Part shown: piece after piece, positions 24,860-62,631 of the stretch | Numbering within the stretch: the stretch's first letter is position 1 | How the letters are laid out: every line of letters begins with the position of its first letter | From: a virus | Virus record (IMG/VR): IMGVR_UViG_3300036770_006893 | Span: 124,001 to 188,000 of that record | Length of the DNA stretch: 64,000 bases | Reading direction: 5' to 3' (one strand) | Translations under genes and position numbers: made by a program | The notes under the pieces: generated by a model | The model's database searches: none | What the model was told of the DNA's origin: nothing | Seen by the model: the letters and a program-made list of their open reading frames with translations, nothing else

Positions 24860-25332
24860 ACTACACCACATAATTGTCTCAGCCAAGACAGATTGGGTTT
24901 AACATAATATATTTTTATATTGCTCATTTTTACAAAAGTATCAAAGTTTTTTTTGGAGTGCTCGTCAAATAATTTCGTTCCATGATCATCAGCCATGTAA
25001 ACTGTATCAATACCCTCCTGGTAAAGAGATATTATACAGTCGTTGCAGCACTGACCGGTGACATATGCTGTTCCGCCGTCAGGTCTGACAACACAATTTG
25101 CTAAAGCGTTTTTTTCACTATGAACCATCCATGCGTACTTATCTGGTCTATTTTTAGGTAGTAAATCATCCTTTAGTCCTTTGGGAAATCCGTTATATCC
25201 AACTCCAAGAATCCTATTATTTTTATCTGTAATCACACAACCATGTTTGGTGTGTATGTCGTGGCTGCGTAATGATATTACTTTAGCCAATCCAAGAAAA
25301 TAATCAGTCCACTCTGGTCTAGTAGTGCTCAT
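24856..25332 (-). CDS. dCMP deaminase
   Basis: A 158-residue zinc-dependent deoxycytidylate deaminase. Ligands are visible as MVHSEKNALANC (His-x-Glu, about residues 74-85) and TGQCCNDCIISLY (Cys-x-x-Cys, about 97-109); the N-terminus RPEWTDYFLGLAKVISLRS is typical of the family. It converts dCMP to dUMP. It is the first gene of the nucleotide/replication operon. A consensus promoter ends 7 bases before its ATG, so the mRNA may have no leader. Confidence 0.93.
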   Translation of the reverse strand: MSTTRPEWTDYFLGLAKVISLRSHDIHTKHGCVITDKNNRILGVGYNGFPKGLKDDLLPKNRPDKYAWMVHSEKNALANCVVRPDGGTAYVTGQCCNDCIISLYQEGIDTVYMADDHGTKLFDEHSKKNFDTFVKMSNIKIYYVKPNLSWLRQLCGVV

Positions 25333-25339
25333 AGATCAT

Positions 25340-25367
25340 ATTATAGTCATTGCGTCGTGTCTGTCAA
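25340..25367 (-). promoter_or_regulatory. consensus sigma70-like promoter of the nucleotide/replication operon
   Basis: TTGACA (25362-25367) and TATAAT (25340-25345), both perfect consensus hexamers, are 16 bases apart. The predicted start of transcription, 6-7 bases after the -10 box, falls within a base or two of the dCMP deaminase ATG at 25332, with no ribosome site between. This predicts a leaderless mRNA. Confidence 0.75.
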
Positions 25368-25399: not shown

Positions 25400-27559
25400 C
25401 TACTCTGGGCTGTTGAACTGTTCTATATTTATGTTTTTGTATTTTTTCATAAATATTTGTTTATTTATAACTTGGTAGGTCTTAGCTCCTAAATTTATAT
25501 CTGTGCCACTAGACGATCCTTCGTCATGTATAGCTAAACACCTTGGCTCGTACATTGTCTTTAATCCTTTGACATGGGCTCTGTATTGCCATTCGCTATC
25601 TTCATAATACATCTTGCTTAAAGAAGTATCGAGAGCTCCTATATTAGCGATAGCGTCTCTTCTCATATATAGCAAACAGCCGGAACAATAACCAACAGAT
25701 CTTCTGATATTACTGTCTGGGTTTTCGTTTGGCGCATATCGAAATAAATTTCTGCCGTTACCGTCGTTATATAATTCTGCACCAGCCTCAGCTATCGTAT
25801 TATTTGGATACAAAGTTTTACCTCCAACTGCCGCCACGGTATTTGCCGAATAAGCAGTAGAGTATAAGTGATTGAGCCAGCAATCAGAAATAATCTCTAT
25901 GTCATCATTTACTAATACAATATCAGAATGTTTATATTTTTTACTGTTTATTATTTTATTATTTGGAATTATGAAGTATTCGTTACTTTTATTTTTGATA
26001 TAATCAATTTTTTCTGGATATTGTTGTTTAAATTTATGTATTATATTGAATATATTAGTATTATTACTATTATCAGTTATTGCTATAGTATAATTAGAAT
26101 ATTTAGTCTTAGATAATATGCTGCTCAGGCATTTTTCCAATTTATCTGTTTGCTTGTAGGCGACTATACTAATTGCTATGTGTTTAGAAAAAAGTGTTGA
26201 TTCTAGTGTGGTTTTTGCAGCCTGATGGTCTACGATTTTTTGTAATTGGCTTCTACCAAGTTTTCCTAGTTTGATTTTGTCTTTGCTATTTAAAGAAAAA
26301 AAGTATTCTAATTGTTGAACGAATTCTTCATCAGAATTTGCTATCAATGCATTTGACCGATTGGTAAAATTAATGCCTTCGTTACCTATGGTGGTCGTTA
26401 AAATAGGGATACCAGACATACCACTATCGCATATTTTACCCTTAATACCGGCGCCCCAATATAGAGGAGCGAGACATAAGCAACTTTTTTTATATAGATC
26501 TTCGATATTATCTATTTTGCCGGTGATAACTATATCCTTATCTTGTCTCGCCTGAGAGATAATTTTATTGCAAATGTTGGGTCCTGCTATATATAATTTA
26601 GGCTTATGTTTTAATTTTTTATATACAGGCGACATCTTGAATGTTCTAAATACTTTTATGGAGTTGAGCGCACCTTCCTTGTTAGGACCGTGAGCATAAT
26701 TGCCAAGAAAAAATATATCATTTCCAAGTTTTGACTTGATGTTTTTTGCATAATGTATGTTACTAAGAATCTTTATGTTTGTGCTATATCCTAACTCTTG
26801 CTCAATATGTTTTTTGTCTTCGTTTGTAATTGCAAAAACCACATCAGCGGATAGATATACGTTTTTTTCTGTGTTTTTTCTAATAGATAGTGCTTGTGTA
26901 CTAATGTCGAGATTTCCGGTGTCGTAGCCTCTCTGCTCTCTAATCCAATGCACATCAACACTATCAACAATAATTTTAGTGCTTGGATAAATTTTTTTAA
27001 CTATATCCATATATTGCGCTGCTATGTCGTACCAACAGAAAATAGCTGCGTCAAAAGTTATATTATTATTATATAAATCTTGTAAATAAATATCCATATA
27101 AATATTATTATCTATATCTGGATAGTAGACTTTTATATTAAGCTTTTGAAGTGATTCTATATATTTTTTAGATATCGGATTATTACAAAAAAAGTAAACA
27201 TTTTGATTTAGATCTTTAGTTAAGATTTTTAATATTTCATATAATCTATTGCCTCCGCTACTTAGATCATAATCTGGTGCCAATGGAGAGAAAACCATTA
27301 TATTATTGGTATTTTTAGACGGCCATTGTTCGCAAGAGTGTGACGGGGTGGGTTTGTTTGCTGTGTAATATTTGAAAACGCGATTCTCTTTGCGTCCAAA
27401 TAGAATATAGTGCTCTATAGCCTTTTGATAATCATCTATATGCGCCAAAGAAAGGTCTGGATTTAAATCAATATATGCTTTATGGTCAAAGTTTTCTGGT
27501 ATCAAATGCATTAGCTTTGATGTGAATCGTCTAATTTCCGGCGTTGATTCCCAAATCAT
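25400..27559 (-). CDS. two-domain glycosyltransferase (GT4-like plus GT2)
   Basis: A 719-residue fusion. Residues about 20-65 carry a short helical motif (YIDLNPDL ... HYILFGRKENR) found at the N-terminus of some polysaccharide enzymes. Residues about 85-430 form a GT-B/GT4-like part, with FFLGNYAHGPNKEGALNS opening the donor domain and LAPLYWGAGIKGKICDSGM as donor-binding loop. Residues about 455-719 are a GT2 domain: ISIVAYKQTDKLEKCLSS, a variant DxD in VLVNDDIEII, and GALDTSLSKMYYEDSEWQYR near the catalytic base. It likely adds two sugars in sequence. Confidence 0.85.
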   Translation of the reverse strand: MIWESTPEIRRFTSKLMHLIPENFDHKAYIDLNPDLSLAHIDDYQKAIEHYILFGRKENRVFKYYTANKPTPSHSCEQWPSKNTNNIMVFSPLAPDYDLSSGGNRLYEILKILTKDLNQNVYFFCNNPISKKYIESLQKLNIKVYYPDIDNNIYMDIYLQDLYNNNITFDAAIFCWYDIAAQYMDIVKKIYPSTKIIVDSVDVHWIREQRGYDTGNLDISTQALSIRKNTEKNVYLSADVVFAITNEDKKHIEQELGYSTNIKILSNIHYAKNIKSKLGNDIFFLGNYAHGPNKEGALNSIKVFRTFKMSPVYKKLKHKPKLYIAGPNICNKIISQARQDKDIVITGKIDNIEDLYKKSCLCLAPLYWGAGIKGKICDSGMSGIPILTTTIGNEGINFTNRSNALIANSDEEFVQQLEYFFSLNSKDKIKLGKLGRSQLQKIVDHQAAKTTLESTLFSKHIAISIVAYKQTDKLEKCLSSILSKTKYSNYTIAITDNSNNTNIFNIIHKFKQQYPEKIDYIKNKSNEYFIIPNNKIINSKKYKHSDIVLVNDDIEIISDCWLNHLYSTAYSANTVAAVGGKTLYPNNTIAEAGAELYNDGNGRNLFRYAPNENPDSNIRRSVGYCSGCLLYMRRDAIANIGALDTSLSKMYYEDSEWQYRAHVKGLKTMYEPRCLAIHDEGSSSGTDINLGAKTYQVINKQIFMKKYKNINIEQFNSPE

Positions 27560-31472: not shown

Positions 31473-31856
31473 TTAGGCTGTTCCTTTCTTTAAAAAAATG
31501 CCTGTTTCTCTGAAAATAGTAACAGTAGCATCAATTGAGGCCGAAACCATAATCATGAGAATTTTTTTGATATACCCATGTATAATAGGCTCAACCACAG
31601 ACGGCACAAAGGGAATATCTATAATTAAAAAAGCCTTATCGTAGAAATTATTAATATATTCAATTGCAATATCTTTTTTATCTTTACCCTCTAGAGTTTT
31701 AGCGGTTGATTCAATTATCTGTACTGTGCTTGCGGTTACGAGCTGTAGACTTCTCCACGCTTCGTTTAGTGCTATTTTTTTTACGCTTTGCAGGCTTTCT
31801 TTTAGTTGTTGGTGTACTTTTTCTGCTTCGGCTATTATTAGTTCTTTGGGCGTCAT
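31473..31856 (-). CDS. hypothetical helical protein in membrane cassette
   Basis: A 127-residue protein, helical in the first half (EKVHQQLKESLQSVKKIAL) and hydrophobic in the second (AFLIIDIPFVPSVVEPIIHG, ILMIMVSASIDATVTIF), so it may associate with membrane. The first 146 bases overlap the coding end of the holin-like gene in another frame. No family recognised. Confidence 0.55.
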   Translation of the reverse strand: MTPKELIIAEAEKVHQQLKESLQSVKKIALNEAWRSLQLVTASTVQIIESTAKTLEGKDKKDIAIEYINNFYDKAFLIIDIPFVPSVVEPIIHGYIKKILMIMVSASIDATVTIFRETGIFLKKGTA

Positions 31857-34311: not shown

Positions 34312-35394
34312 CTATAATTGTCCACCATCAGTAATATTCCAATTATAGGTAGTACTTAATACATTTCTGGCTGACGCTGCGGCAGACGAATATTTATTTG
34401 TTCCAACTCCCCAAATCACATCATTAGAAGGAGATAATAGTTGAGACCAAGCAATAAGGGCTGCGTCGTAGTTTGATGTTCCCCAAGTGTCGCTGAAAAA
34501 CATCGACTCCATAGTAGTGACCTTGCGAATGTCCCAGCTGGAAATGTCTTGAGTAAAGGCAGTTGCTCCGCTAAAAGTAAGCAACAAGGTAGTAACGCTT
34601 GCTGTGTTCCAAGAGCTAATCGGTTGGTTGAACGAGGACGCATTCTGGAACATGCCTCTCATATTAATCACCTTAGATGTATTCCAAGAACCGATTGGCT
34701 GGTTGAAGGCACTGCAACCGGCAAACGTACCATTCATGTTTGTTACGGCCGATGTATTCCAAGAACCGATAGGTTGATTGAAAGAGTATGAGTTGAAGAA
34801 CATGAAGCCCATGTTTGTTACGGCTGATGTGTTCCAAGAACCGATGGGCTGGTTGAAAGAGTATGCGTTGAAGAACATGAAATCCATGTTTGTCACAGTG
34901 GAAGTATTCCACGAAACAATATTAACATCATTAAATTGTGAACAACCACTAAATGCTCCTTGAAGACTAGTAATGTTACTATTAGTTGGCAAGTTTGCTG
35001 GGCATTGAATAAGGTTTATGCAGTTTGCATATGCATTTAGGAGCGAGGTTAATCCAACAGTTCCAAAACTTAAACACCTTACGAGTTTAGATCTATTGTT
35101 TGTTGTACTATTTGCGGTTCCGTAATTTAGCTGTGTCATCGTGCCACTAATTTGCACAACATAAATTCCGGGAGTAGCATAAGTATGAGTCTTAAATCCA
35201 GTGGTGGTGTGCGACTCGCTTGAACCGTCGCCCCAGTCTATGACGCAGTTAACCGTTCCATTAAGAGGTACAGATATGGTATTGTTTATAGGCTCTTTTG
35301 AAGTATCGTAGACTAATACTAAATTAGTAGTATCGTAGTTAAACCTTATTTGCGAACCTATTAAAAGACTATTATTTTTTACAAAAGTACTCAT
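34312..35394 (-). CDS. BspA-type repeat adhesin-like protein
   Basis: A 360-residue protein. Residues about 40-80 carry a PKD-like segment ([18 protein letters not shown]). From about residue 135 on are tandem 25-residue units of the BspA/DUF285 type, each with the pattern '[25 protein letters not shown]'. The repeats are very similar at DNA level. Such domains bind surfaces or proteins in bacteria, and here probably form part of a tail fibre or receptor-binding structure. The C-terminus ([11 protein letters not shown]) is a usual ending of this family. Confidence 0.75.
34640..34930. repeat. tandem 75-bp repeats encoding BspA units
   Basis: Successive 75-base units encode the adhesin's 25-residue repeats (for example at about 34680, 34755 and 34830), with strong nucleotide similarity between neighbouring units. 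Such similarity lets copy number change by recombination. Confidence 0.7.
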
Positions 35395-38003: not shown

Positions 38004-41000
38004 TTAAATATCCCAACCCGCCTGTCTAAGATTAACTAATGCTTGCGCACCAGGAATAGTTCTTGCGATTATCGTACCACGACTACTAGTACGCACTCTA
38101 ATTTTTGTATTAGCAGTATAATTGTACTCGAACGCAGAACTTGCTGGCCTGGGTGTTGTGAAATAAGTAGAGAATAATGATTTATTTTGATCCCATTTGA
38201 TTAACAGATTGTCCAAGTCACTGCCCGGTAAATACAAATCGCTCAGTAAAGCAGGGAGAATCCAATCGTCTGTTCCCAGAATACTAAAGTCTGCCGCATC
38301 CTTAAGACTACTAGCATTCCATCTAGATAATTTTGTTGTGTATCCGGTAAGCCTAAACATATCTCGCATACTTATAACATTAGAAACATTCCAATTATTG
38401 ATATCTGTTGTGAAAGCACCAGCATTATAAAACATGCTATTCATATTTGTAACTTGAGAAGTATCCCAATTGCTTATATTTCCTCTAAAGCTTACAGCCG
38501 ACTCAAACATAGAACTCATGTTTGTAACTTTACCGGTATTCCAAGAATCTAGTGTATCGCCGGTAAATGCCCGAGCGTCTTGAAACATCCTCGACATATT
38601 TGTAACATTGCTGGTATCCCACAGGGATAACGGAATATTAAATCTTACACATCCTCGAAACATGTTATTCATATCATTTATGCTCGATGTGTCCCAGCTC
38701 ATAACATTAGGGTCATTGAAAGTAGTACATAATGGTAGTTGTATGTGTTCGGCCTTTGGAATATAATCTGGAACAGAATTGAGGAGTGGTAAAGAGTCTA
38801 AAGTTATTCTCTTAAGCGAACTTATCCAAGAAGATATTCCCGTAACACCGCCTGCTACACTCGATGTGGGAGTAGAGGTAAAGCTATCAGCAATGACTAC
38901 ATCCGTAGTATTAGTATGATTAATTGGAGTAATTTTAATAGATCCAGTTTTATTCCTTGCAGTAACCACACTAGGTCTTCTGTCGGTAAAGTTAATAACT
39001 AGCCTATGTTTGCCATCAAAGAATACTGTTCCAACTACCCCATCCTGCTGAGTTCCGCCCTCTACTAAGTACCAGCTGGGCTCCGACGCGTCTATAGTAA
39101 TCGTTATAGCCATCGTACTAGAATTAATTAGGGTAGAATAATTATGGCCATAATCTATAATTAAGGGGCTTATTACTGAGTCAGGTGGTATTGGAGAAAC
39201 ACTAACGCTTGGACTAACAGTAGGACTGATGGTTTGTGTTGGTGTTGCTGTTGCGCTAACGCTAACGCTAACGCTTGGAGTGGGCGTCATGCTGTGTGTT
39301 GGCGTTAGTGTTGGAGTCATGGTTTGCGTTGGTGTTGGAGATCTCGATGGCAATGGTGTTGGTGTTACTGTTGCGCTCACGCTATTGGTTGGCGTTACTG
39401 TTCTTGTTACAGTCGGCGATACTGTTATACTTGGACTAACTGTTTGGCTAACCGTAACCGTGGGTGTGGTCGTGGGTGTAGTAGTTGGACTATTAGTTAT
39501 TGTTGGCGTGGGCGTAGGAGTTCTTGTACTAACGGGAGTTGGAGAAGGAGTTGGGGTGCATTGTGCTGCACACTTTAATGCAATGTAGTCTGTGCTTGTG
39601 GCGCCGGTTGATTCTCTAGTTAATCTAATAAAAGCATTAACATTTACATTACCATTCAGGAGGGCTAAAGATGTTAATCTAGCATTATTTGCCACATAAA
39701 CGTGGCCGCCAGCAGGATAAAATGAAACATTGCTAGAATCACTACCAAATCTAAAATAGTACTTTTCTTTAGAAATATTATTAGTACTAGACAAGTCATC
39801 TATATAACTATCTGGTAAATAATTTTTAATATCTACCATAATTGGTATATATTGTTTACATCCATTTCCAGAAACTTCTATTTGACGATTAGAAGGAGCA
39901 ACAAACTCTACATCTGTTACAAATTCCTTGGAATAGCATTTGTTGCATTTTAATAAAGACTCAGACCAAGCAATACCACAATTTGGTTGAGATGCTTTTG
40001 CTATATTGAAACGTAATATATTATAGATTTTACTAAAATCTTTAGTTTTTTCAGAAACTGGTGGTAGATTAAAATTAGTGTTTTTATCATTGACAAATGT
40101 AAAGGTGGATGATATTGTATGAGTATCGCCATTTGCAATGAACACATTATCTTTATCGGATATATGAGCTGGCCAATTACTGTCGGTGGAATCAAAGAAA
40201 TACGAATATGATGTATTTTTAGATAGTCCAGTTACCACAACATCAACCACAGCATGATCACCCTCAAATTGAGACAAATCAATATTATTAGTCATAGATA
40301 ATATTTTAGGGCATTTATTGTACTGTTCTTTAGCGTCATGGCATGAGTCGCACTGTACAGTAAAGATATGATCAACTTTTTCTGGACATAAAGTTTGGAT
40401 ATTTTTAGCATTTCCCGAAGAATCAGATAAAACAGGCTGTGGAGCATCATGGGATTGGGTGGGATATGTCCAATAGGCGGCTAGTTCTGAATCATAAAAT
40501 GCCGCCTTGTACCATTCGTTGTGAGATGGAATAAAATATTTTGCATCAAAATTTCTGTATATTTGGTTATCAAATATTATATTGCGTAAATCATATGCTC
40601 CGACTAGTAGTTTATCATTGATAGTAGCAGGATCGTATACTCTAATATTAACGTCAAAAGACCCGAAGTTATCTTCAGTACATCTGACATCGTTTATGCC
40701 TAGGTATAGTCGTCCAGAAATTTCTGGGTTATACCTACCGCCAGTACCTATTTCAAAAATAGTTCCATTATCTCCTATTTTTCCAACCAAAGCAGCCACT
40801 GGTATACTTACTGCTTGAGGAACATCAAAGCCACAAGTTGCGGAAGCGAGTTCTCCTAAATTAACACCCTCTGGTCCTGTCCATTGGTTTATATCAGTAA
40901 CATCTGTAAACTTAATTGTCCCAGACGCTTGTATCTCAACAATAGAGTCGGGATGTAAGTCTATATTGGAATCAACCCAATCTTGAGCTATAGAATTATT

Positions 41001-43640
41001 TGGTACATTTTCATATATATCCCATCCTTTATTATTGTGTAACCAATTGCAGTATTTTGCGGCTCTAATCCAGGAGATAAAATTAGCAGGTTTATTGCTC
41101 ATTAACGGTTTAATTACATATCTTTCTCCAAAGTTTTTGCATGAATCTAAGGCTATGCCTCCTGTATGATGGTTCGCCATTCTGTAATCATACAAATCAA
41201 GATTATTTTCACCCAGAGGATCAACAGTATTTAAATAGTCGCAGTATTCTTGATTAGTTAATAAATTTTGTTGTATATAATAACTATAGTATACGCTACC
41301 AAGATTACAACTTTCTGGGCTTGGGTCGTTAATATTTCCTTCGTTTTCTATTATAATAAAATTATTATAATTGTCTGGATTTTCATATGAAGCAATTCTT
41401 AGACCAAATCCTCCGTCGTCAAAAACAGAAAAAATATCATGGTTTTTAAATATGTGCTTACTAAGAGCAAGACTATCGCTATCTAGCCAGCTACCACCAC
41501 GTAAAATTTTATGATTAGGTTTATTGTCTGGGCTAGTATCTGTCCATTCGTATAACTGACCGGCCATATCATAGATACCATATTTTGATGGCCTTCCATT
41601 AAGGCCGATTGTTGTTAATCCAGCATTACCACCCCATACGGCCCTTTCTGCGTAATTACATGAATTATTATCTAATTCTTTGTTGCTATTAAGAGACAGC
41701 TTAATAACAGAATAAATATTTTTATCATTACTGATAAGCTTTGATAGATTAGCTTGTTGAATAAACACATCATCAAAACCAAATTCTATAACCCCAGCGA
41801 TTTCTGATGTTTGGTCATGTCTATTTGTGATTATTCCAGATAAGGGATAGATTGAACACGGGGCAGAAGCGTCCACAGATTCAAAAGAGTAAGAATAATT
41901 ATCTAAAAGCCCGGATAGTGATATATTGAACGGGATCATTAATCCTGTAGATATAATTAAATTATCAGAATTAATACCAGAAATATTGATATTTGGACAT
42001 ATGTTGGTTTCACAAAGGATTTTTGGATCTGCCTCTAAGCATCTGGGTATATGTATATCTTTATCTGGGTATTCACGAGTTATAAAATAATAGGATTCGC
42101 CAGGTTCTAGTTCAGATAAGGAGCTGTATGGATTAGGTACAAATGCATTACCAGATGGTAATACCCAAAAAATTGCAGTATTATCATCTATACTTTTTGT
42201 ACTATATATAGTAGAAATATTGTCTATAAAATTGTGCCATAGTTGATATTGTTTTTCTCCAGGCTGAAAAACCTTATCTCCACATTTAGGCTCAAGTAAA
42301 GATAGTTTATCACTACCAAGATATGTTTTAATATTAAACATCGATTCTAGAATCATGTTATTAATATTATCTACTTGTGGCGCCGTAAATATTGATGGGG
42401 TGGGTGTGTTACTTGGGGTTGTGGTTATTGTTGGTGTTACTGTGGGAGTTACTGATCTTGTTGGCGTTGGAGTTTTTGTGGGTGTTTTTGTTGGACTTAT
42501 TGTATTTGTGGGAGTACTTGTTGAGGTTGGGGTTGTAGTAACAGTAGTAGTGACTGTTGGGGTTGGGGTTAGTGTTGGTGTGATGCTGCTAGTTGGGGTG
42601 TGGGTTGGAGTAGTTGTAGGTGTGGTTGTTATGGTCGGAGTTGTTGTTGGAGTAAGACTAACAGACAAAGATTGTGTAGGAGATAAGGTTGGAGTTACTG
42701 TATTTGTTGGAGTAGTAGTTGGAGTTAGGCTTGGTGTCAATGTAGGGGTGGGACTAGGAAAAATATTATTTACTGGTCCATCACCTAATATGTTCGATAT
42801 AACGCATGATGGGTCTGTATCGTATTGCGTAGCATATAACCAATATCCACTATTTAATCCGTCAGCTTTATAGTATGCTGATTTATACCATTCATTTTCT
42901 GAAGATATAGCATATTTAGCATTTGGGTTTCTAGTTATAGACAATATATTAGTGCCATTAGTTAAATCATATGCGCCCGATTCTGTATCTCCGAAATCAT
43001 TATGAAGCCAATTCGCCATCCTTGCGGCACAAAACCAGTCAACATAATTTACTGGCTTATTTGACATATTATTTTTAACTATATATTTTGATCCAACAGG
43101 ATTGCTAGGAACATAAATAATACCTCCTCTAAAATTATTTGTCATATCTATAGAATATGTATTATACAGATTTTGGCCGCTAGGATCTGTGTTGTTCAAA
43201 AATTCGACATATTCTTGATTAGTGACAGGATGTATCATGATGTGATAATCATAAGATACTGATCCTTTTGAGTTTGTGTCGGCTTCATTACCAGAGTCGT
43301 TTATCCCTACAAAAGAACCAAAAATAGAACCAATTGATAAATGTACTAATCTAAAACCTATATTAAATGATTTCGTACTAGCGGAACTATTGATAGAAAA
43401 ATTAGAAGATAAAACCGAAGTGGTTGTTGAGTTCCAGGCTCCTCCTCTAAGAATTTTATTATAATTGCCTTGATTTTCTATGGTATTTTCATTCCATTCC
43501 CAAACATTTCCGGATTGATCTCTTGTCCCGTATGCACTAGTGCCACCATTTGTACCTACTGAGGTAATATTACCGTTTTGTAGATTCCATCTAGCACAAT
43601 TATTAAAATTGGCAGTATTACTACCTTTTGGAAAAGCCAT
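38004..43640 (-). CDS. giant multidomain adhesin with two permuted SUMF1/FGE-like domains
   Basis: An 1,878-residue protein. Residues about 1-100 hold the usual C-terminal half of a SUMF1/FGE-like domain (YGTRDQSGNVWEWNE, ILRGGAWN, NIGFRLV); residues about 105-285 hold its usual N-terminal half (VSYDYHIMIHPVTNQEYVEF, NWLHNDFGDTE, NEWYKSAYYKADG). A Thr/Pro-rich linker follows (about 290-413). Residues about 660-1070 repeat the same reversed order (RGGSWLD and FGLRIAS first, LLTNQEYCDYLN and NEWYKAAFY later). A second Thr/Pro linker is at about 1357-1483 and BspA repeats at about 1640-1770. Catalytic FGE cysteines are not evident. Probably a tail-fibre-like receptor-binding protein. Confidence 0.75.
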   Translation of the reverse strand: MAFPKGSNTANFNNCARWNLQNGNITSVGTNGGTSAYGTRDQSGNVWEWNENTIENQGNYNKILRGGAWNSTTTSVLSSNFSINSSASTKSFNIGFRLVHLSIGSIFGSFVGINDSGNEADTNSKGSVSYDYHIMIHPVTNQEYVEFLNNTDPSGQNLYNTYSIDMTNNFRGGIIYVPSNPVGSKYIVKNNMSNKPVNYVDWFCAARMANWLHNDFGDTESGAYDLTNGTNILSITRNPNAKYAISSENEWYKSAYYKADGLNSGYWLYATQYDTDPSCVISNILGDGPVNNIFPSPTPTLTPSLTPTTTPTNTVTPTLSPTQSLSVSLTPTTTPTITTTPTTTPTHTPTSSITPTLTPTPTVTTTVTTTPTSTSTPTNTISPTKTPTKTPTPTRSVTPTVTPTITTTPSNTPTPSIFTAPQVDNINNMILESMFNIKTYLGSDKLSLLEPKCGDKVFQPGEKQYQLWHNFIDNISTIYSTKSIDDNTAIFWVLPSGNAFVPNPYSSLSELEPGESYYFITREYPDKDIHIPRCLEADPKILCETNICPNINISGINSDNLIISTGLMIPFNISLSGLLDNYSYSFESVDASAPCSIYPLSGIITNRHDQTSEIAGVIEFGFDDVFIQQANLSKLISNDKNIYSVIKLSLNSNKELDNNSCNYAERAVWGGNAGLTTIGLNGRPSKYGIYDMAGQLYEWTDTSPDNKPNHKILRGGSWLDSDSLALSKHIFKNHDIFSVFDDGGFGLRIASYENPDNYNNFIIIENEGNINDPSPESCNLGSVYYSYYIQQNLLTNQEYCDYLNTVDPLGENNLDLYDYRMANHHTGGIALDSCKNFGERYVIKPLMSNKPANFISWIRAAKYCNWLHNNKGWDIYENVPNNSIAQDWVDSNIDLHPDSIVEIQASGTIKFTDVTDINQWTGPEGVNLGELASATCGFDVPQAVSIPVAALVGKIGDNGTIFEIGTGGRYNPEISGRLYLGINDVRCTEDNFGSFDVNIRVYDPATINDKLLVGAYDLRNIIFDNQIYRNFDAKYFIPSHNEWYKAAFYDSELAAYWTYPTQSHDAPQPVLSDSSGNAKNIQTLCPEKVDHIFTVQCDSCHDAKEQYNKCPKILSMTNNIDLSQFEGDHAVVDVVVTGLSKNTSYSYFFDSTDSNWPAHISDKDNVFIANGDTHTISSTFTFVNDKNTNFNLPPVSEKTKDFSKIYNILRFNIAKASQPNCGIAWSESLLKCNKCYSKEFVTDVEFVAPSNRQIEVSGNGCKQYIPIMVDIKNYLPDSYIDDLSSTNNISKEKYYFRFGSDSSNVSFYPAGGHVYVANNARLTSLALLNGNVNVNAFIRLTRESTGATSTDYIALKCAAQCTPTPSPTPVSTRTPTPTPTITNSPTTTPTTTPTVTVSQTVSPSITVSPTVTRTVTPTNSVSATVTPTPLPSRSPTPTQTMTPTLTPTHSMTPTPSVSVSVSATATPTQTISPTVSPSVSVSPIPPDSVISPLIIDYGHNYSTLINSSTMAITITIDASEPSWYLVEGGTQQDGVVGTVFFDGKHRLVINFTDRRPSVVTARNKTGSIKITPINHTNTTDVVIADSFTSTPTSSVAGGVTGISSWISSLKRITLDSLPLLNSVPDYIPKAEHIQLPLCTTFNDPNVMSWDTSSINDMNNMFRGCVRFNIPLSLWDTSNVTNMSRMFQDARAFTGDTLDSWNTGKVTNMSSMFESAVSFRGNISNWDTSQVTNMNSMFYNAGAFTTDINNWNVSNVISMRDMFRLTGYTTKLSRWNASSLKDAADFSILGTDDWILPALLSDLYLPGSDLDNLLIKWDQNKSLFSTYFTTPRPASSAFEYNYTANTKIRVRTSSRGTIIARTIPGAQALVNLRQAGWDI
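39185..39575. repeat. low-complexity Thr/Pro-coding repeat (second linker of giant adhesin)
   Basis: A G/T-rich stretch on the plus strand (C/A-rich in the coding sense) made of degenerate 6- and 12-base units encoding runs of Thr, Pro and Ser. It lies inside the giant adhesin and is a likely site of slippage or recombination with the other two similar tracts. Confidence 0.75.
42395..42775. repeat. low-complexity Thr/Pro-coding repeat (first linker of giant adhesin)
   Basis: Another degenerate repeat tract of the same kind, encoding alternating Thr-Pro with Ser/Val, inside the same gene. It separates the first SUMF1-like domain from the rest of the protein. Confidence 0.75.
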
Positions 43641-45354: not shown

Positions 45355-48015
45355 TTACGGAATTAAATTAGTACAAATCGATGGTAGAGTTATATACTGA
45401 TATGGGCTGCAATCAACCCAAGAGGCATCTGCACGTTGCCAATCTGCAAAACTTACTTCGTGCTTAATATTAACGTAGTATAGGCCACAATGTAATTCAT
45501 CTATGCAATTAATATGATTAATAGCTAAATATAATCGACCAGATGCTGCTGCTTTAAGAGACAGGTCGGATCCTATAAAGAAAGGCGATCCGTTTTCACC
45601 AATTTTGCCTATTAGTGATAGGGAAGGTAAGTGTTGAGCTTCTTGTAGTTTGCATGAAGTTAAATTGTTTGAGATACCATTAGGACCGGATTGTAGAGGA
45701 ACGGGTGTTGTAACGGTGGATGGGGACAGAACAGACGATGGGTAGTACACGACTCCAGTAGCCCCAAACTCTAATTCTTCTTCATCTACTATGTCTATAA
45801 AAGTATCTTTCCACGAAGGGGTTCTGGCTCCAACATATATATCAATAGATTCTCTTTCTATAAGTCTGTATTCAACGTTGCAACAACAGCTTGGGTTTCT
45901 AAGCATATCTAGTATAAAAATACCTCCGCCATCAGCTAATTTGTCGGTTAGTGTAGCATCACAAATTTCTATACTTGGACATTCACAAATAGCGTCTCTT
46001 GGGAAGGGCCCATTTTTAAGACTATCTATTAATGGACATACGGGTTGTTTGTTTGACTGTGTGGCATATCGATAATATCTCGAATCAATGGGGTTATAGT
46101 ACGCAGCCTTATACCACTCATTGTCTGTTGGTAAGAAATATTTTGCGTCGTTGTTTCGCTTAATTAAATGTATATTCCTTGGCGATACATCAGAAGGTAT
46201 ACTATAGGCGCCATCTTCTGTGTCTCCGAAATTATTGTGTAACCAATTACAGTATCTTATGGCGGTTAGCCAGGTAACAAAATTAACTGGTTTATGGTCC
46301 ATATTTTGTTTTAGATAGTATTCATATCTATCTTTTAACGGATTGAATCTTCTGATAATTCCTCCGTTATTATCATCTTCCATTTCTTGGTGATATAGTC
46401 GTAAGTGATCGGAAGATTGATCGAATGCTACAGAATTTAGAAATGCTATAAACTCATAGTTAGTTACTTCATACTTATGGATTTTGTAGCTATATTTTAC
46501 TCTTCCAAAACCAAGCGAACTAGATAGATTGCAAGGCTCGTTTACATCGGCGAAACACTTGATATCTAATGGGTTATTATACGATGCTATTCTAAAACCA
46601 AATTGTGAAGACACCTGATCAAAATTATTGGAATACCGAGACGATAAGCTAAACGCATCGATTTCCATTAAGCTACTAGCATAGGAACCGCCCCTAAGTA
46701 CTTTATGTAAGGTATTATCTCCTGTTGATTCTGTCCACTCCCAAACATTTCCATTTTGATCAAAAGTACCATACCCACTCTGTCTACCATTAGTACCTAC
46801 TGTTGTAACTATAAAAGCATAGTCTGTGGGGTCGCAGTCTATACATCCGGCAAAATTAATAGAAGATCTAACATCAGGAGATGGACTTGGAGTAGGAGAA
46901 ACTATTGGACAGTCCGCCGTTGCGCAACCGCAGTTATCGTTTTTTACCACTACAATTTTAGAATCTTCTAGATGTGTTTCTAGATCAAGTACTCTAATTG
47001 ATACAGTGGCGCTATCAGATGATTCTAGTCTAGTTAATAAAAGAGTAATGTCTTGATTGCCATCGTATTTGGCAACAAATTCTATTTCACTAGGCACGAT
47101 TTTTGTAATACTATCATAATCATTGGAAAATATGTTGACTTTGTATCTATGAGAAGATATTAATGGTCCTATAGATGCCTGTATAATACAATCATTTAAT
47201 GCTAAATTCGGAGTAATAGAAGGAGTAGGAGATGGGGCAGGGCAAGAGGTTTCGCTAGGGGTCGGTGTTGGCGTGGCTGTTCTAGTGGGTGTTGGTGTGG
47301 GCGTTCTTGTTGGTGTCTTAGTAGGTGTGGCGGTTTGTGTTGGGGTAACGGTCGGAGTACTAGTTGATGTGCGTGTGGGTGTGTTGCTAAGAGTTTGGGT
47401 TGGTGTGATAGTTATGCTAGATGTTGGGGTCAGGCTAGCAGTAAGGCTTACGGTGATAGACGGAGTAGGGGTATGAGTCAAAGAAACCGAAGGGGTCGGA
47501 GTTTGTGTTGGAGTGGTGGAGGGTGTCGGGTTTGGGGTAGGCGTTACAGAAGCTGTTACGCTAGGTGTCGGATTGGGGGTTGGTGTGCATGTTGGGGTTG
47601 GGGTGGCAGATACGCTTATACTTATACTAGGAGTCACCGAGACACTCGGGGTAACAGTAGGGGTGTTAGTTGGCGTTATCGTTGGTGTGGCGGTTGGTGA
47701 GGGTGGTGGAGGAATATCCTCAGAAGTTACTTGACCTATCCAGTTACCTGTGCGGGCACTAACTACTAACCACCTACTACCATTCCATGCCCAATGACCA
47801 TTATCGTTTGGAGAACTATAATTAGTTCTGGAATCATTTATGGGGGACCTAGGATCTATAAAAGTTATTCGACGCCCTCTTTCGTACTCTATACTATGAA
47901 GCTTATTTATTGTAAGCGTATCAAAACGGATAGATCCAGGTGCGTTAGGCTCATAGACTGGCCTATTAAAATATGATGTGACCGACCTAAAGCCTACTCG
48001 TCTATAAATTGCCAT
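45355..48015 (-). CDS. long tail-fibre-like protein with permuted SUMF1/FGE-like domain
   Basis: An 886-residue protein. Residues 1-100 form a fibre-like head (GRRITFIDPRSPINDSRTNY, WAWNGSRWLVVS). Residues about 102-262 are a Thr/Pro/Ser linker. A beta domain at about 265-375 precedes a SUMF1-like domain with the halves swapped: YGTFDQNGNVWEWTES and KVLRGGSYASS with FGFRIASYNN first (about 405-485), then YKIHKYEVTNYEFIAFL, RYCNWLHNNFGDTED and NEWYKAAYYNP (about 500-655). A Cys-containing beta part ends the protein. It is the third such domain in the window and a likely receptor-binding protein. Confidence 0.75.
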   Translation of the reverse strand: MAIYRRVGFRSVTSYFNRPVYEPNAPGSIRFDTLTINKLHSIEYERGRRITFIDPRSPINDSRTNYSSPNDNGHWAWNGSRWLVVSARTGNWIGQVTSEDIPPPPSPTATPTITPTNTPTVTPSVSVTPSISISVSATPTPTCTPTPNPTPSVTASVTPTPNPTPSTTPTQTPTPSVSLTHTPTPSITVSLTASLTPTSSITITPTQTLSNTPTRTSTSTPTVTPTQTATPTKTPTRTPTPTPTRTATPTPTPSETSCPAPSPTPSITPNLALNDCIIQASIGPLISSHRYKVNIFSNDYDSITKIVPSEIEFVAKYDGNQDITLLLTRLESSDSATVSIRVLDLETHLEDSKIVVVKNDNCGCATADCPIVSPTPSPSPDVRSSINFAGCIDCDPTDYAFIVTTVGTNGRQSGYGTFDQNGNVWEWTESTGDNTLHKVLRGGSYASSLMEIDAFSLSSRYSNNFDQVSSQFGFRIASYNNPLDIKCFADVNEPCNLSSSLGFGRVKYSYKIHKYEVTNYEFIAFLNSVAFDQSSDHLRLYHQEMEDDNNGGIIRRFNPLKDRYEYYLKQNMDHKPVNFVTWLTAIRYCNWLHNNFGDTEDGAYSIPSDVSPRNIHLIKRNNDAKYFLPTDNEWYKAAYYNPIDSRYYRYATQSNKQPVCPLIDSLKNGPFPRDAICECPSIEICDATLTDKLADGGGIFILDMLRNPSCCCNVEYRLIERESIDIYVGARTPSWKDTFIDIVDEEELEFGATGVVYYPSSVLSPSTVTTPVPLQSGPNGISNNLTSCKLQEAQHLPSLSLIGKIGENGSPFFIGSDLSLKAAASGRLYLAINHINCIDELHCGLYYVNIKHEVSFADWQRADASWVDCSPYQYITLPSICTNLIP
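47225..47715. repeat. low-complexity Thr/Pro-coding repeat in fibre-like protein
   Basis: About 490 bases of degenerate short repeats, encoding Thr-Pro-Ser runs. This is the longest of the three such tracts in the window. The three tracts share enough sequence to allow recombination between the genes at 38004 and 45355. Confidence 0.75.
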
Positions 48016-50359: not shown

Positions 50360-50807
50360 TTTTATTTTCTAGAAAATTGTATATATTATTTTGAATAAGT
50401 AACATCGTGTCAGCATCATTGAATGCTTTTCCTATTGCTATTCTAAAGCGATATCTAGTAAAAATATCCAAGCACTCTACACCGTCTGTATTTTCTATGA
50501 GATCACATATTTTTGATGTTATATTAAAATTGGTATGACCCATCCAAAAATTAAAAATTTTACCACTGGCAGTATTCTCGTTTATTGGTATGATTCCCAT
50601 GGGCGTAGCTATAACTTTGATACCCTTAACAATTTTTGGTATATAGCTATTATTTTGTGGTGGCCATTCATAATCCTCACCAGGATACTCATCCTCTGGG
50701 TCAACATCAGATTGGTTGTCGTTTGTTTCGCGATAAATATCGTCGTCGATATCTTCGCCAAATGGATCAAACCATTTTTGCCATATAATAGTATTGTTTT
50801 GTTTCAT
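50343..50807 (-). CDS. hypothetical protein with acidic linker
   Basis: A 154-residue protein. The first 45 residues are very acidic (PFGEDIDDDIYRETNDNQSD) and probably flexible; the rest is a compact alpha/beta domain (IVKGIKVIATPMGIIPIN, GKIFNFWMGHTNFNITS, RYRFRIAIGKAFNDAD). The C-terminus is again acidic. Such proteins are frequent near phage head genes, but I recognise no family. A promoter with a consensus-like -10 box ends 7 bases before its ATG, implying a leaderless mRNA. Confidence 0.6.
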   Translation of the reverse strand: MKQNNTIIWQKWFDPFGEDIDDDIYRETNDNQSDVDPEDEYPGEDYEWPPQNNSYIPKIVKGIKVIATPMGIIPINENTASGKIFNFWMGHTNFNITSKICDLIENTDGVECLDIFTRYRFRIAIGKAFNDADTMLLIQNNIYNFLENKNDDDE

Positions 50808-50814
50808 ACTATGT

Positions 50815-50842
50815 ATGATAATCGCTGGCGACCGTGGATCAA
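50815..50842 (-). promoter_or_regulatory. sigma70-like promoter giving a leaderless mRNA
   Basis: TTGATC (50837-50842) and TATCAT (50815-50820) are 16 bases apart. The -10 box ends 7 bases before the ATG at 50805-50807, and no ribosome site is visible. The geometry is the same as before the dCMP deaminase gene. Confidence 0.55.
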
Positions 50843-57775: not shown

Positions 57776-57853
57776 TTAATATTTGTTTGTTAGGCCTTTG
57801 TGAATTCCTAAGAGGATGCAGCTAACAAAAACTATAGCAAAAACTACATTCAT
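57776..57853 (-). CDS. 25-residue hydrophobic peptide with leaderless start
   Basis: A very short frame, ATG 57851-57853 to TAA 57776-57778, immediately before the deoxyribosyltransferase gene. The peptide is one hydrophobic helix (VVFAIVFVSCILLGI) with a short basic end. The promoter before it places transcription start exactly at the A of this ATG. It may be a small membrane protein or a leader peptide for the genes behind it. Confidence 0.5.
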   Translation of the reverse strand: MNVVFAIVFVSCILLGIHKGLTNKY

Positions 57854-57859
57854 ATGTGT

Positions 57860-57887
57860 ATTATAGCGCATGGAGCAGGATAGGCAA
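57860..57887 (-). promoter_or_regulatory. sigma70-like promoter giving a leaderless mRNA
   Basis: TTGCCT (57882-57887) and TATAAT (57860-57865) are 16 bases apart. Six bases separate the -10 box from the ATG of the 25-residue peptide, so the predicted first transcribed base is the A of ATG. The region GCGCTATAATAC is shared with the start of the plus-strand gene at 60985. Confidence 0.65.
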
Positions 57888-57908
57888 GCGGTTTTATAAG
57901 CCTAAGGC

Positions 57909-57933
57909 ACACTGTTAATAATTAATCTAGTGT
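57909..57933 (-). terminator. hairpin before the 57860 promoter
   Basis: A nested palindrome (57909-57913 with 57929-57933, and inside it 57915-57919 with 57921-57925). It lies between the stop of the upstream glycosyltransferase gene and the strong promoter, a usual place for a terminator, but no T-run follows on the minus strand. Confidence 0.3.
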
Positions 57934-57970
57934 CACGTACTATGACAATATTTTGGTTTATTGTCTGTAA

Positions 57971-60653: not shown

Positions 60654-60851
60654 CTAGTGATTGTAGTACCTGTCCCAGTCTTCCCATTCTTCTTCTTCAA
60701 AATCCTGTTTTATTTTTTTATATTCAGACTGTTTCCTTAACTTAGCTTCTAATGGATCTTCATCCGCGCTTGTATACTTTTTCTTTTTGTTTTTAATCTT
60801 ACTTCTTCTTATTTCTTTTCTAATTGAAAAGTCATCAGATTCATTTTTCAT
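60654..60851 (-). CDS. small highly charged protein, first gene of the minus-strand block
   Basis: A 65-residue protein that is extremely rich in Lys, Glu and Asp (DFSIRKEIRRSKIKNKKKKY, EDPLEAKLRKQSEYKK, FEEEEWEDWDRYYNH). GGAG lies 6 bases before the ATG at 60849-60851. It is the promoter-proximal gene of the divergent region. Such proteins in phages can target host factors; no motif supports a specific role. Confidence 0.6.
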   Translation of the reverse strand: MKNESDDFSIRKEIRRSKIKNKKKKYTSADEDPLEAKLRKQSEYKKIKQDFEEEEWEDWDRYYNH

Positions 60852-60926: not shown

Positions 60927-60956
60927 TTGACGAACACAAAAATCCCTTTATATATT
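60927..60956 (+). promoter_or_regulatory. candidate plus-strand promoter
   Basis: TTGACG (60927-60932) and TATATT (60951-60956) are 18 bases apart, opposite in direction to the minus-strand promoter 26 bases away. A second -10-like TATAAT (60973-60978) stands 6 bases before the ATG of the gene at 60985 but has no good -35 box at 16-18 bases. Confidence 0.5.
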
Positions 60957-60984
60957 ATGCAGGCCCGGGCGCTATAATACTCTT

Positions 60985-62631
60985 ATGAATACAAATATAA
61001 CTCTGGTGACAGGAATATGGGACCTTGGTAGATCTAATCTATCAGATGGTTGGTCTAGGGCTTTTGAGCACTATATAAATAATTTCAGGCTACTGCTAAA
61101 TAATACTAAAGATATAAATTTGGTAGTATTTATAGACAAGTCGTTGGAAGAATTAGTGTGGTCTATAAGAGAAAAGACTAATACCAGAGTATACCACCAT
61201 TCAGTAGAAGAGTTTGATAGTAATTTTTTCCCATTTCGTGAAGAAGTAGAAAAAATAAGAAAAAACGAAGAATGGTTGAACCAAGCGGGTTGGCTTAGAG
61301 AAAGCACTCAAGCTAGGCTAGAAATGTACAATCCTTTAGTTATGAGCAAGATGTTCCTGCTGCATAATGCTAAAATATATAATGATTTTAATAGTGATTA
61401 TCTTTTTTGGATAGATGGCGGGATAACAAATACTGTGCATCCAGGTTATTTTAGTAGCGATAAGGTTCTTCAGAAAATATCTGAAAAATTAGATAATTTT
61501 TTGTTTATATGCTTTCCATATAATACAGAATCCGAAATACATGGGTTCAAAATAGAAGGAATGAGAAAATTTAGTCAGTGTGATTCTGTTAAAAGAGTTG
61601 CTAGGGGAGGTTTTTTTGGTGGAAAATCTGAGCTTATATCACCAGCTAATGATATGTATTATGCTTTGCTTAAGGATACTTTGTCTCAAGGATATATGGG
61701 AACCGAAGAAAGCATATTTACTATCATGTCTTATTTAGACAGCAAAAGTTTTAGAGTAGAGATGATAAATGAGGACGGCCTTATATCTACCTTCTTCGAA
61801 AATGTAAAAAACAATAAATTTATATCACTAAATAAATCACAAAAAATACACAAAAACAAAAACATAGAGCTGTATATAAATACATTTAACTCTCCAAAAC
61901 AACTTAAAATGGTGATAGAAAGCTTTGAACGGCACGATACAAATTTCCTAAATAAAACAAAAAAGTTTCTAATTAATAATTCAACAAATGAAAAATTTGA
62001 TACAGAATATGACGAGATATGTAATCAATATAACTTTAATCAAATCAAAAAAGGTAATATAGGTATATGCGGTTCCAGACAATTGGCCGCAGAAATGTTC
62101 TATAAAAATAAAAGCCAGTATATGTTATTTTTTGAGGATGATATGTTAATAGATTTTTCTGGTGTTTGTAGATTCGGTTTTCCCAAAAAAACAAAAGATC
62201 TCTTTAATAATTTAGTTTCAATAATGGATCAAGAAAATTACGATTTTATTAAGCTCAGCTTTTCAGAATTCTACGGACATAATGGAATGCAATGGAGTTG
62301 GCATAATGTTCCACATAATAAAAAAATAGAATATTTTGGCGAAATCAAAAACAAACCATTCACATTATTTAAAAACATAAAATCAAAGAATGGTGTTCCG
62401 TATGCCGACGGAGAGGTTTACTACTCCAACTGGCCACATATTATAAACCAAGAAGGCAATAAGAAAATGTTTATAGACACCAAATGGGCCAACCCTTTTG
62501 AACAAACTTGGATGAGCCATATTTACTCATTGACAAAAGAACAAAAAGTATTTCCAGCAATATTGCTATCTAGTCCAATAACACATAATAGGGTAGATTT
62601 TTATGAGTCTTCAGAAAGAAAAGAAAACTAA
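60985..62631 (+). CDS. HtrL/YibB-type glycosyltransferase fused to GT2 domain
   Basis: A 548-residue protein. The first 280 residues resemble the HtrL/YibB/WlaTC family: VTGIWDLGRSNLSDGWSRAF, NLVVFIDKSLEELVWSIRE, YNPLVMSKMFLLHNAKIYN and YLFWIDGGITNTVHPGYF. Residues about 295-548 are a second, GT2-like domain: IELYINTFNSPKQLKMVIES and MLFFEDDMLIDFSG (DxD-like, about 390-403). It has no ribosome site upstream and its ATG coincides with the predicted transcription start. Overlaps the next gene by 29 bases. Confidence 0.75.
   Translation: MNTNITLVTGIWDLGRSNLSDGWSRAFEHYINNFRLLLNNTKDINLVVFIDKSLEELVWSIREKTNTRVYHHSVEEFDSNFFPFREEVEKIRKNEEWLNQAGWLRESTQARLEMYNPLVMSKMFLLHNAKIYNDFNSDYLFWIDGGITNTVHPGYFSSDKVLQKISEKLDNFLFICFPYNTESEIHGFKIEGMRKFSQCDSVKRVARGGFFGGKSELISPANDMYYALLKDTLSQGYMGTEESIFTIMSYLDSKSFRVEMINEDGLISTFFENVKNNKFISLNKSQKIHKNKNIELYINTFNSPKQLKMVIESFERHDTNFLNKTKKFLINNSTNEKFDTEYDEICNQYNFNQIKKGNIGICGSRQLAAEMFYKNKSQYMLFFEDDMLIDFSGVCRFGFPKKTKDLFNNLVSIMDQENYDFIKLSFSEFYGHNGMQWSWHNVPHNKKIEYFGEIKNKPFTLFKNIKSKNGVPYADGEVYYSNWPHIINQEGNKKMFIDTKWANPFEQTWMSHIYSLTKEQKVFPAILLSSPITHNRVDFYESSERKEN

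Follow-up and report, generated by a model that had tools for sequence, protein, structure and literature searches.

The phage lineage analysed here carries a class of predicted sigma70-type promoters in which the −10 box lies 6–7 nt from an ATG and no Shine-Dalgarno (SD) site is found, and this class occurs far above chance. Most of it lies outside the window, the whole stretch of 64,000 nucleotides that was analysed (bases 124001–188000 of a 224,357-base virus record), with the richest set in another part of the genome. We consider it very probable that a single set of sigma70-type promoters serves two modes of initiation: a conserved subset would be leaderless, with transcripts opening on the AUG, other members would give a leader with an SD site, and genes would switch between these forms.

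According to this model, consensus promoters (TTGACA, 16–17 nt, a TATAAT-like box) would serve the early region and a few other genes, for example that of dCMP deaminase, and would presumably be read by the housekeeping RNA polymerase of the host. In the conserved subset, the start codon would be fixed at the transcription start point. Transcription would begin at the A of AUG in the 6-nt class, or within about 1–3 nt, and ribosomes would initiate on the 5′-terminal AUG without an SD site. Other promoters of the same type would produce a short leader containing such a site, and single genes could change form by gain or loss of the approximately 12–16 nt that hold it. The parts of this model that we infer are the actual transcription start, the host sigma factor, the early timing and leaderless translation.

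Promoters next to start codons in the presumptive early region

The record describes a large tailed phage resembling T4 in features such as RIIA/RIIB, dCMP deaminase, ribonucleotide reductase, DNA ligase, a portal protein and tail fibre-like proteins. The minus strand carries most genes at 0–42 kb and 124–224 kb, and the plus strand carries those of the structural block. At the start of this block, a protein with a weak match to sigma-70 region 2 and phage sigma factors (L004:5398–6018, record 45398–46018, plus strand) is the only phage-encoded sigma-like protein found in the record; it is perhaps a late sigma factor like T4 gp55. The protein of 1878 aa encoded at window positions 38004–43640 combines FGE-sulfatase and DUF285 domains, and DUF285 also occurs in the product of 34312–35394, together with a weak PKD match; both are probably virion or host-binding proteins. 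Ribosomal protein S21 was not found in the record.

The source phage is uncultured, and the relatives compared, all from IMG/VR, are freshwater phages. The phage collection searched held no close isolate for the portal, RIIA, ligase or record 30289 protein. A host assignment from GTDB matches was rejected: the best match (69%) lies on a small contig of a Flavobacteriales MAG that is possibly mis-binned phage, and no matching promoter was seen in front of it. The other GTDB match, on a Planctomycetota contig, is weaker.

The evidence read from these genomes comprises the promoter layout and its conservation, the distance peak, the absence of SD sites, switching between forms and codon-like substitution from the ATG on. 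A preliminary description of the window had proposed searching the rest of the genome for ATG-adjacent promoters. This search returned about five more candidate leaderless starts on the minus strand of the presumptive early region (record 14–41 kb; Table 1), where genes are called early from promoter density and map position alone. Record 14460 is a weak candidate because of its poor −10 box. Between 0 and 42 kb of the record, promoters with a score of at least 11 occur at 0.82 per kb of coding strand, versus 0.07 on the opposite strand and 0.03 across the structural block. An ATG follows at 6–9 nt in five of them (one of which, at 25910, was later rejected) versus none antisense.

Orthologues of the genes at record 30289 and 31518 were fetched and reduced to 43 non-redundant loci, or 324 kb. 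These loci contain 404 strong promoter matches in sense versus 2 in antisense orientation, and 7.0 ± 2.8 were obtained after shuffling. The class that the preliminary description had proposed, which lacks a ribosome site and has its −10 box 6–7 nt from ATG, is real: 72 ATGs lie 6–9 nt after a −10 box (before removal of internal ATGs) versus 0.2 in shuffles. The early region of T4, used as a control, contains no ATG-adjacent strong promoter. The distance from −10 box to ATG in the early loci is bimodal, peaking sharply at exactly 6 nt, with another mode at 18–23 nt. After removal of internal ATGs, 38 starts remain at exactly 6 nt, five at 7–9, none at 2–5 and three at 0–1. By a crude test, an SD site is present at none of the starts at 6–9 nt and at 71 of the 74 at 18–23 nt. 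Leaderless starts are a minority of the promoters.

The early promoters have TTGACA and TATAAT-like boxes with spacers of 16 and 17 nt in about equal numbers, within the 16–18 nt of sigma70 housekeeping promoters, and the host housekeeping sigma would be the simplest reading of these motifs. Distinct leaderless early promoters have spacers of 16 nt (24 promoters) or 17 nt (18 promoters), a count that still included false positives of the MAYDPN family, all with a spacer of 16. The consistent 16-base spacer pointed out earlier therefore describes three window sites but not the class as a whole, and we dropped it as a class mark, both lengths being common. The group at a distance of 8 nt is mostly one protein family with an internal ATG; this MAYDPN family, including record 25910, was rejected because a longer reading frame spans both its ATG and its boxes. 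The motif CGATA is found in the 16–17 nt spacer of one third to two thirds of early promoters, leaderless and SD-led alike (early loci L089–L180 and record 0–42 kb, L002 and L003). Its GATA most often starts at base 5 of 16, or at base 7 or 11 of 17.

A pyrimidine followed by a purine is the usual signature of a transcription start. Among 112 distinct promoters with an SD site, 79% carry A at base 7 downstream of the −10 box, and base 6 is a pyrimidine in 62%. For the 6-nt leaderless class, base 7 coincides with the A of the ATG, and 93% have a pyrimidine just before it. These preferences are indirect evidence that the messenger may start on the start codon.

The 6-nt layout recurs across several unrelated gene families. 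Two of them dominate the count, with 25 and 16 distinct promoters and all but one gene at 6 nt. The family of record 33716 occurs in 13 leaderless forms and six forms with leader and SD site. The gene at 31518 is leaderless only in this record; its relatives combine a similar promoter with a leader and SD site. Substitutions in the 30289 family fall preferentially at the third position of codons, beginning with codon 2, and this pattern supports the start assigned to it.

The four starts described in the window

All four window sites of the preliminary description are present with the boxes and spacings it gave, at 25332 (−), 50807 (−), 57853 (−) and 60985 (+). As members of the class they differ: relatives support dCMP deaminase and speak against 50807, and the layouts at 57853 and 60985, which relatives do not share, are plausible. 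The coexistence of leadered promoters of the same type, also described before, holds as well, for example at 60851 (TTGACT-16-TAGAAT, 22 nt, GGAG). Gene calls were home-made for this analysis, and chance expectations were computed over all 71 window gene starts, for −10-to-ATG distances of 6–8 nt. About half of all genes fail the crude SD test; since 44 of the 71 called window genes have no obvious SD site by it, absence of a ribosome site is weak evidence in the window.

Table 1. Promoters and genes discussed in the text. Coordinates refer to the window unless marked record.
Feature	Position	Strand	Details
Leaderless promoter (predicted), dCMP deaminase	25333..25367	−	TTGACA 25362–25367, 16-nt spacer, TATAAT 25340–25345, 7 nt to ATG
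dCMP deaminase gene, 158 aa	24856..25332	−	start codon 25332; PF00383 2.6e-13, phrog_174 9e-32
Claimed promoter, 50807 gene	50808..50842	−	TTGATC 50837–50842, 16-nt spacer, TATCAT 50815–50820, 7 nt to ATG
Conserved gene, 154 aa	50343..50807	−	21 relatives in IMG/VR
Possible leaderless promoter, 25-aa membrane-like peptide	57854..57887	−	TTGCCT 57882–57887, 16-nt spacer, TATAAT 57860–57865, 6 nt to ATG
25-aa ORF MNVVFAIVFVSCILLGIHKGLTNKY	57776..57853	−	small hydrophobic ORFs at same position in many relatives
TATAAT 6 nt before 60985 ATG, without −35	60973..60984	+	TATAAT 60973–60978
Rival promoter, 60985 gene	60927..60956	+	TTGACG 60927–60932, 18-nt spacer, TATATT 60951–60956, 28 nt from ATG
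548-aa gene, HtrL_YibB / glycosyltransferase-like	60985..62631	+	PF09612 3.2e-12
Leaderless candidates	record 30289, 31518, 33716, 35292		score ≥11
Leaderless candidate	record 40520		score 10

The leaderless promoter predicted for dCMP deaminase is strongly supported, and it is the only one of the four backed by relatives. Its boxes give a 12/12 match, for which 0.002 starts are expected by chance among the 71 window genes. In 21 of 32 distinct upstream regions from IMG/VR relatives, a promoter lies 6–8 nt (in one case 10 nt) from the ATG without an SD site. A few weaker ATG-adjacent promoters were also seen by eye. The sole form with leader and SD site among these relatives is that of L063, with a 22-nt leader, and the remaining upstream regions contain no promoter above threshold. 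Some relatives encode enzymes with 2–6 extra N-terminal residues, and the distance from promoter to ATG is unchanged; therefore, the promoter tracks the start codon. In relatives, the conserved core motif RPxW starts at the ATG or within a few residues of it.

The boxes in front of the 50807 gene give a 9/12 match. Chance alone would produce about 0.6 such starts, and two are seen, one of which is that of dCMP deaminase. A promoter of this type at 5–9 nt was looked for in 19 distinct relatives and found in none, and some of them have an SD site instead. Judged from these sequences, the boxes are probably a chance resemblance, and the gene is most likely transcribed together with the one or more genes that end 42 nt upstream of it. 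Pfam and PHROG searches with its product returned no match.

A leaderless status is plausible for the 57853 peptide and the 60985 gene. The promoter at 57853 gives a 10/12 match, which is not significant alone because small ORFs are numerous, and it is not conserved in relatives. Many relatives contain a fast-evolving small hydrophobic ORF directly upstream of the 57226–57768 gene (window 57776–57970, loci L233–L312). The TATAAT at 60985 is mildly notable, as about 0.18 exact matches 6–7 nt before a start are expected in the window. As the first of a plus-strand run, the 60985 gene must have a promoter within the 133 nt that separate it from the preceding gene. Neither TATAAT-6-ATG nor the TTGACG-18-TATATT layout of the rival promoter is recognisable in relatives of this gene.

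Alternative readings

Could the boxes simply be chance matches before start codons in an AT-rich genome? This explanation fits the 50807 site well, given the expected number of starts and the lack of support from relatives, and is possible for 57853 and 60985. For the class, it is already refuted by the shuffle and strand controls: shuffles, antisense strands, the late region and the T4 early region yield zero or nearly zero cases at 6–9 nt, against the 72 observed, and the promoters are conserved in relatives whose spacers have diverged. As a general account, chance is very improbable. It is also highly unlikely that transcription begins at these sites and translation at a downstream in-frame codon preceded by an SD site. 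This is true of record 25383, which was rejected as a leaderless start on finding GGAG before an in-frame ATG 15 nt downstream. The position of the dCMP deaminase core and the codon-like substitutions in the 30289 family contradict such an arrangement, which moreover gives no reason for the exact placement of ATG at 6 nt.

The genes might instead be read normally from upstream promoters on long mRNAs, with little contribution from the ATG-adjacent boxes. Most genes are indeed packed head to tail, and read-through would account for the box-less relatives at dCMP deaminase and 31518 and for all relatives of 50807. The existence of relatives with no promoter at genes of leaderless families, which are read from upstream instead, counts against our preferred model. 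We nevertheless give read-through very little credence as the general explanation, since it leaves unexplained why near-consensus promoters are conserved at one fixed distance in many relatives that have diverged.

The preferred model of one promoter set with leaderless and SD-led members invites a more speculative extension, which we regard as doubtful. Early genes may be split between the two modes so that the balance of proteins shifts when the host initiation machinery changes during infection. Leader gain and loss in orthologues would then be adaptive tuning, and CGATA might mark promoters for a phage or host factor.

Relation to known leaderless genes

These phages offer a large natural comparative set of orthologous genes, leaderless and SD-led, under the same promoter. 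A cultured relative would allow a direct test of when and why phages drop the leader. The layout is also a warning that small early genes of phages will be overlooked or wrongly placed by gene callers that rely on SD sites.

Leaderless phage genes are already known from lambda cI, phiYS40 and cluster O mycobacteriophages. Transcription of lambda cI from PRM by the host sigma70 polymerase produces a leaderless phage mRNA. This gene is named as a source of leaderless mRNA in PMC9031893; it is a single regulated repressor gene, in contrast to the recurrent layout described here. Phage transcripts are often leaderless according to PMC5312081. The Thermus phage phiYS40 (Sevostyanova 2007), as far as it is summarised in PMC3594737, is also a large phage with many leaderless mRNAs. 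Its leaderless transcripts are middle or late, and leaderless genes abound in the phylum of its host, whereas those proposed here are presumptively early and are mixed with SD-led genes. The cluster O mycobacteriophages have SigA-like promoters, PL1, PL2 and PR2, with a predicted +1 at the first base of the start codon (PMC4351075). These are few promoters in actinobacterial phages, in contrast to the several gene families, many relatives and leader gain and loss seen here.

Among bacteria, TA-led (leaderless) genes are widespread (Zheng et al. 2011, PMC3160421). Similar to the class described here, they have a TANNNT −10 box whose first T lies about 12 nt upstream of the start codon, they lack an SD site, and they occur alongside SD-led genes. 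They belong to bacterial chromosomes, whereas we describe a phage lineage with a near-consensus −35 box and a sharp 6-nt gap. In Deinococcus-Thermus, a −10 box adjoining the ORF also drives leaderless mRNA, and a −35 box at 17 nt strengthens it (PMC12340547). These bacterial genes depend weakly on the −35 box, which is usually near consensus in our phages. Our literature search found precedents for leaderless phage genes and none for this lineage. To these precedents, the present set adds the scale of conservation, the sharp separation of distances into two modes for a single type of promoter, and gain and loss of the leader among orthologues.
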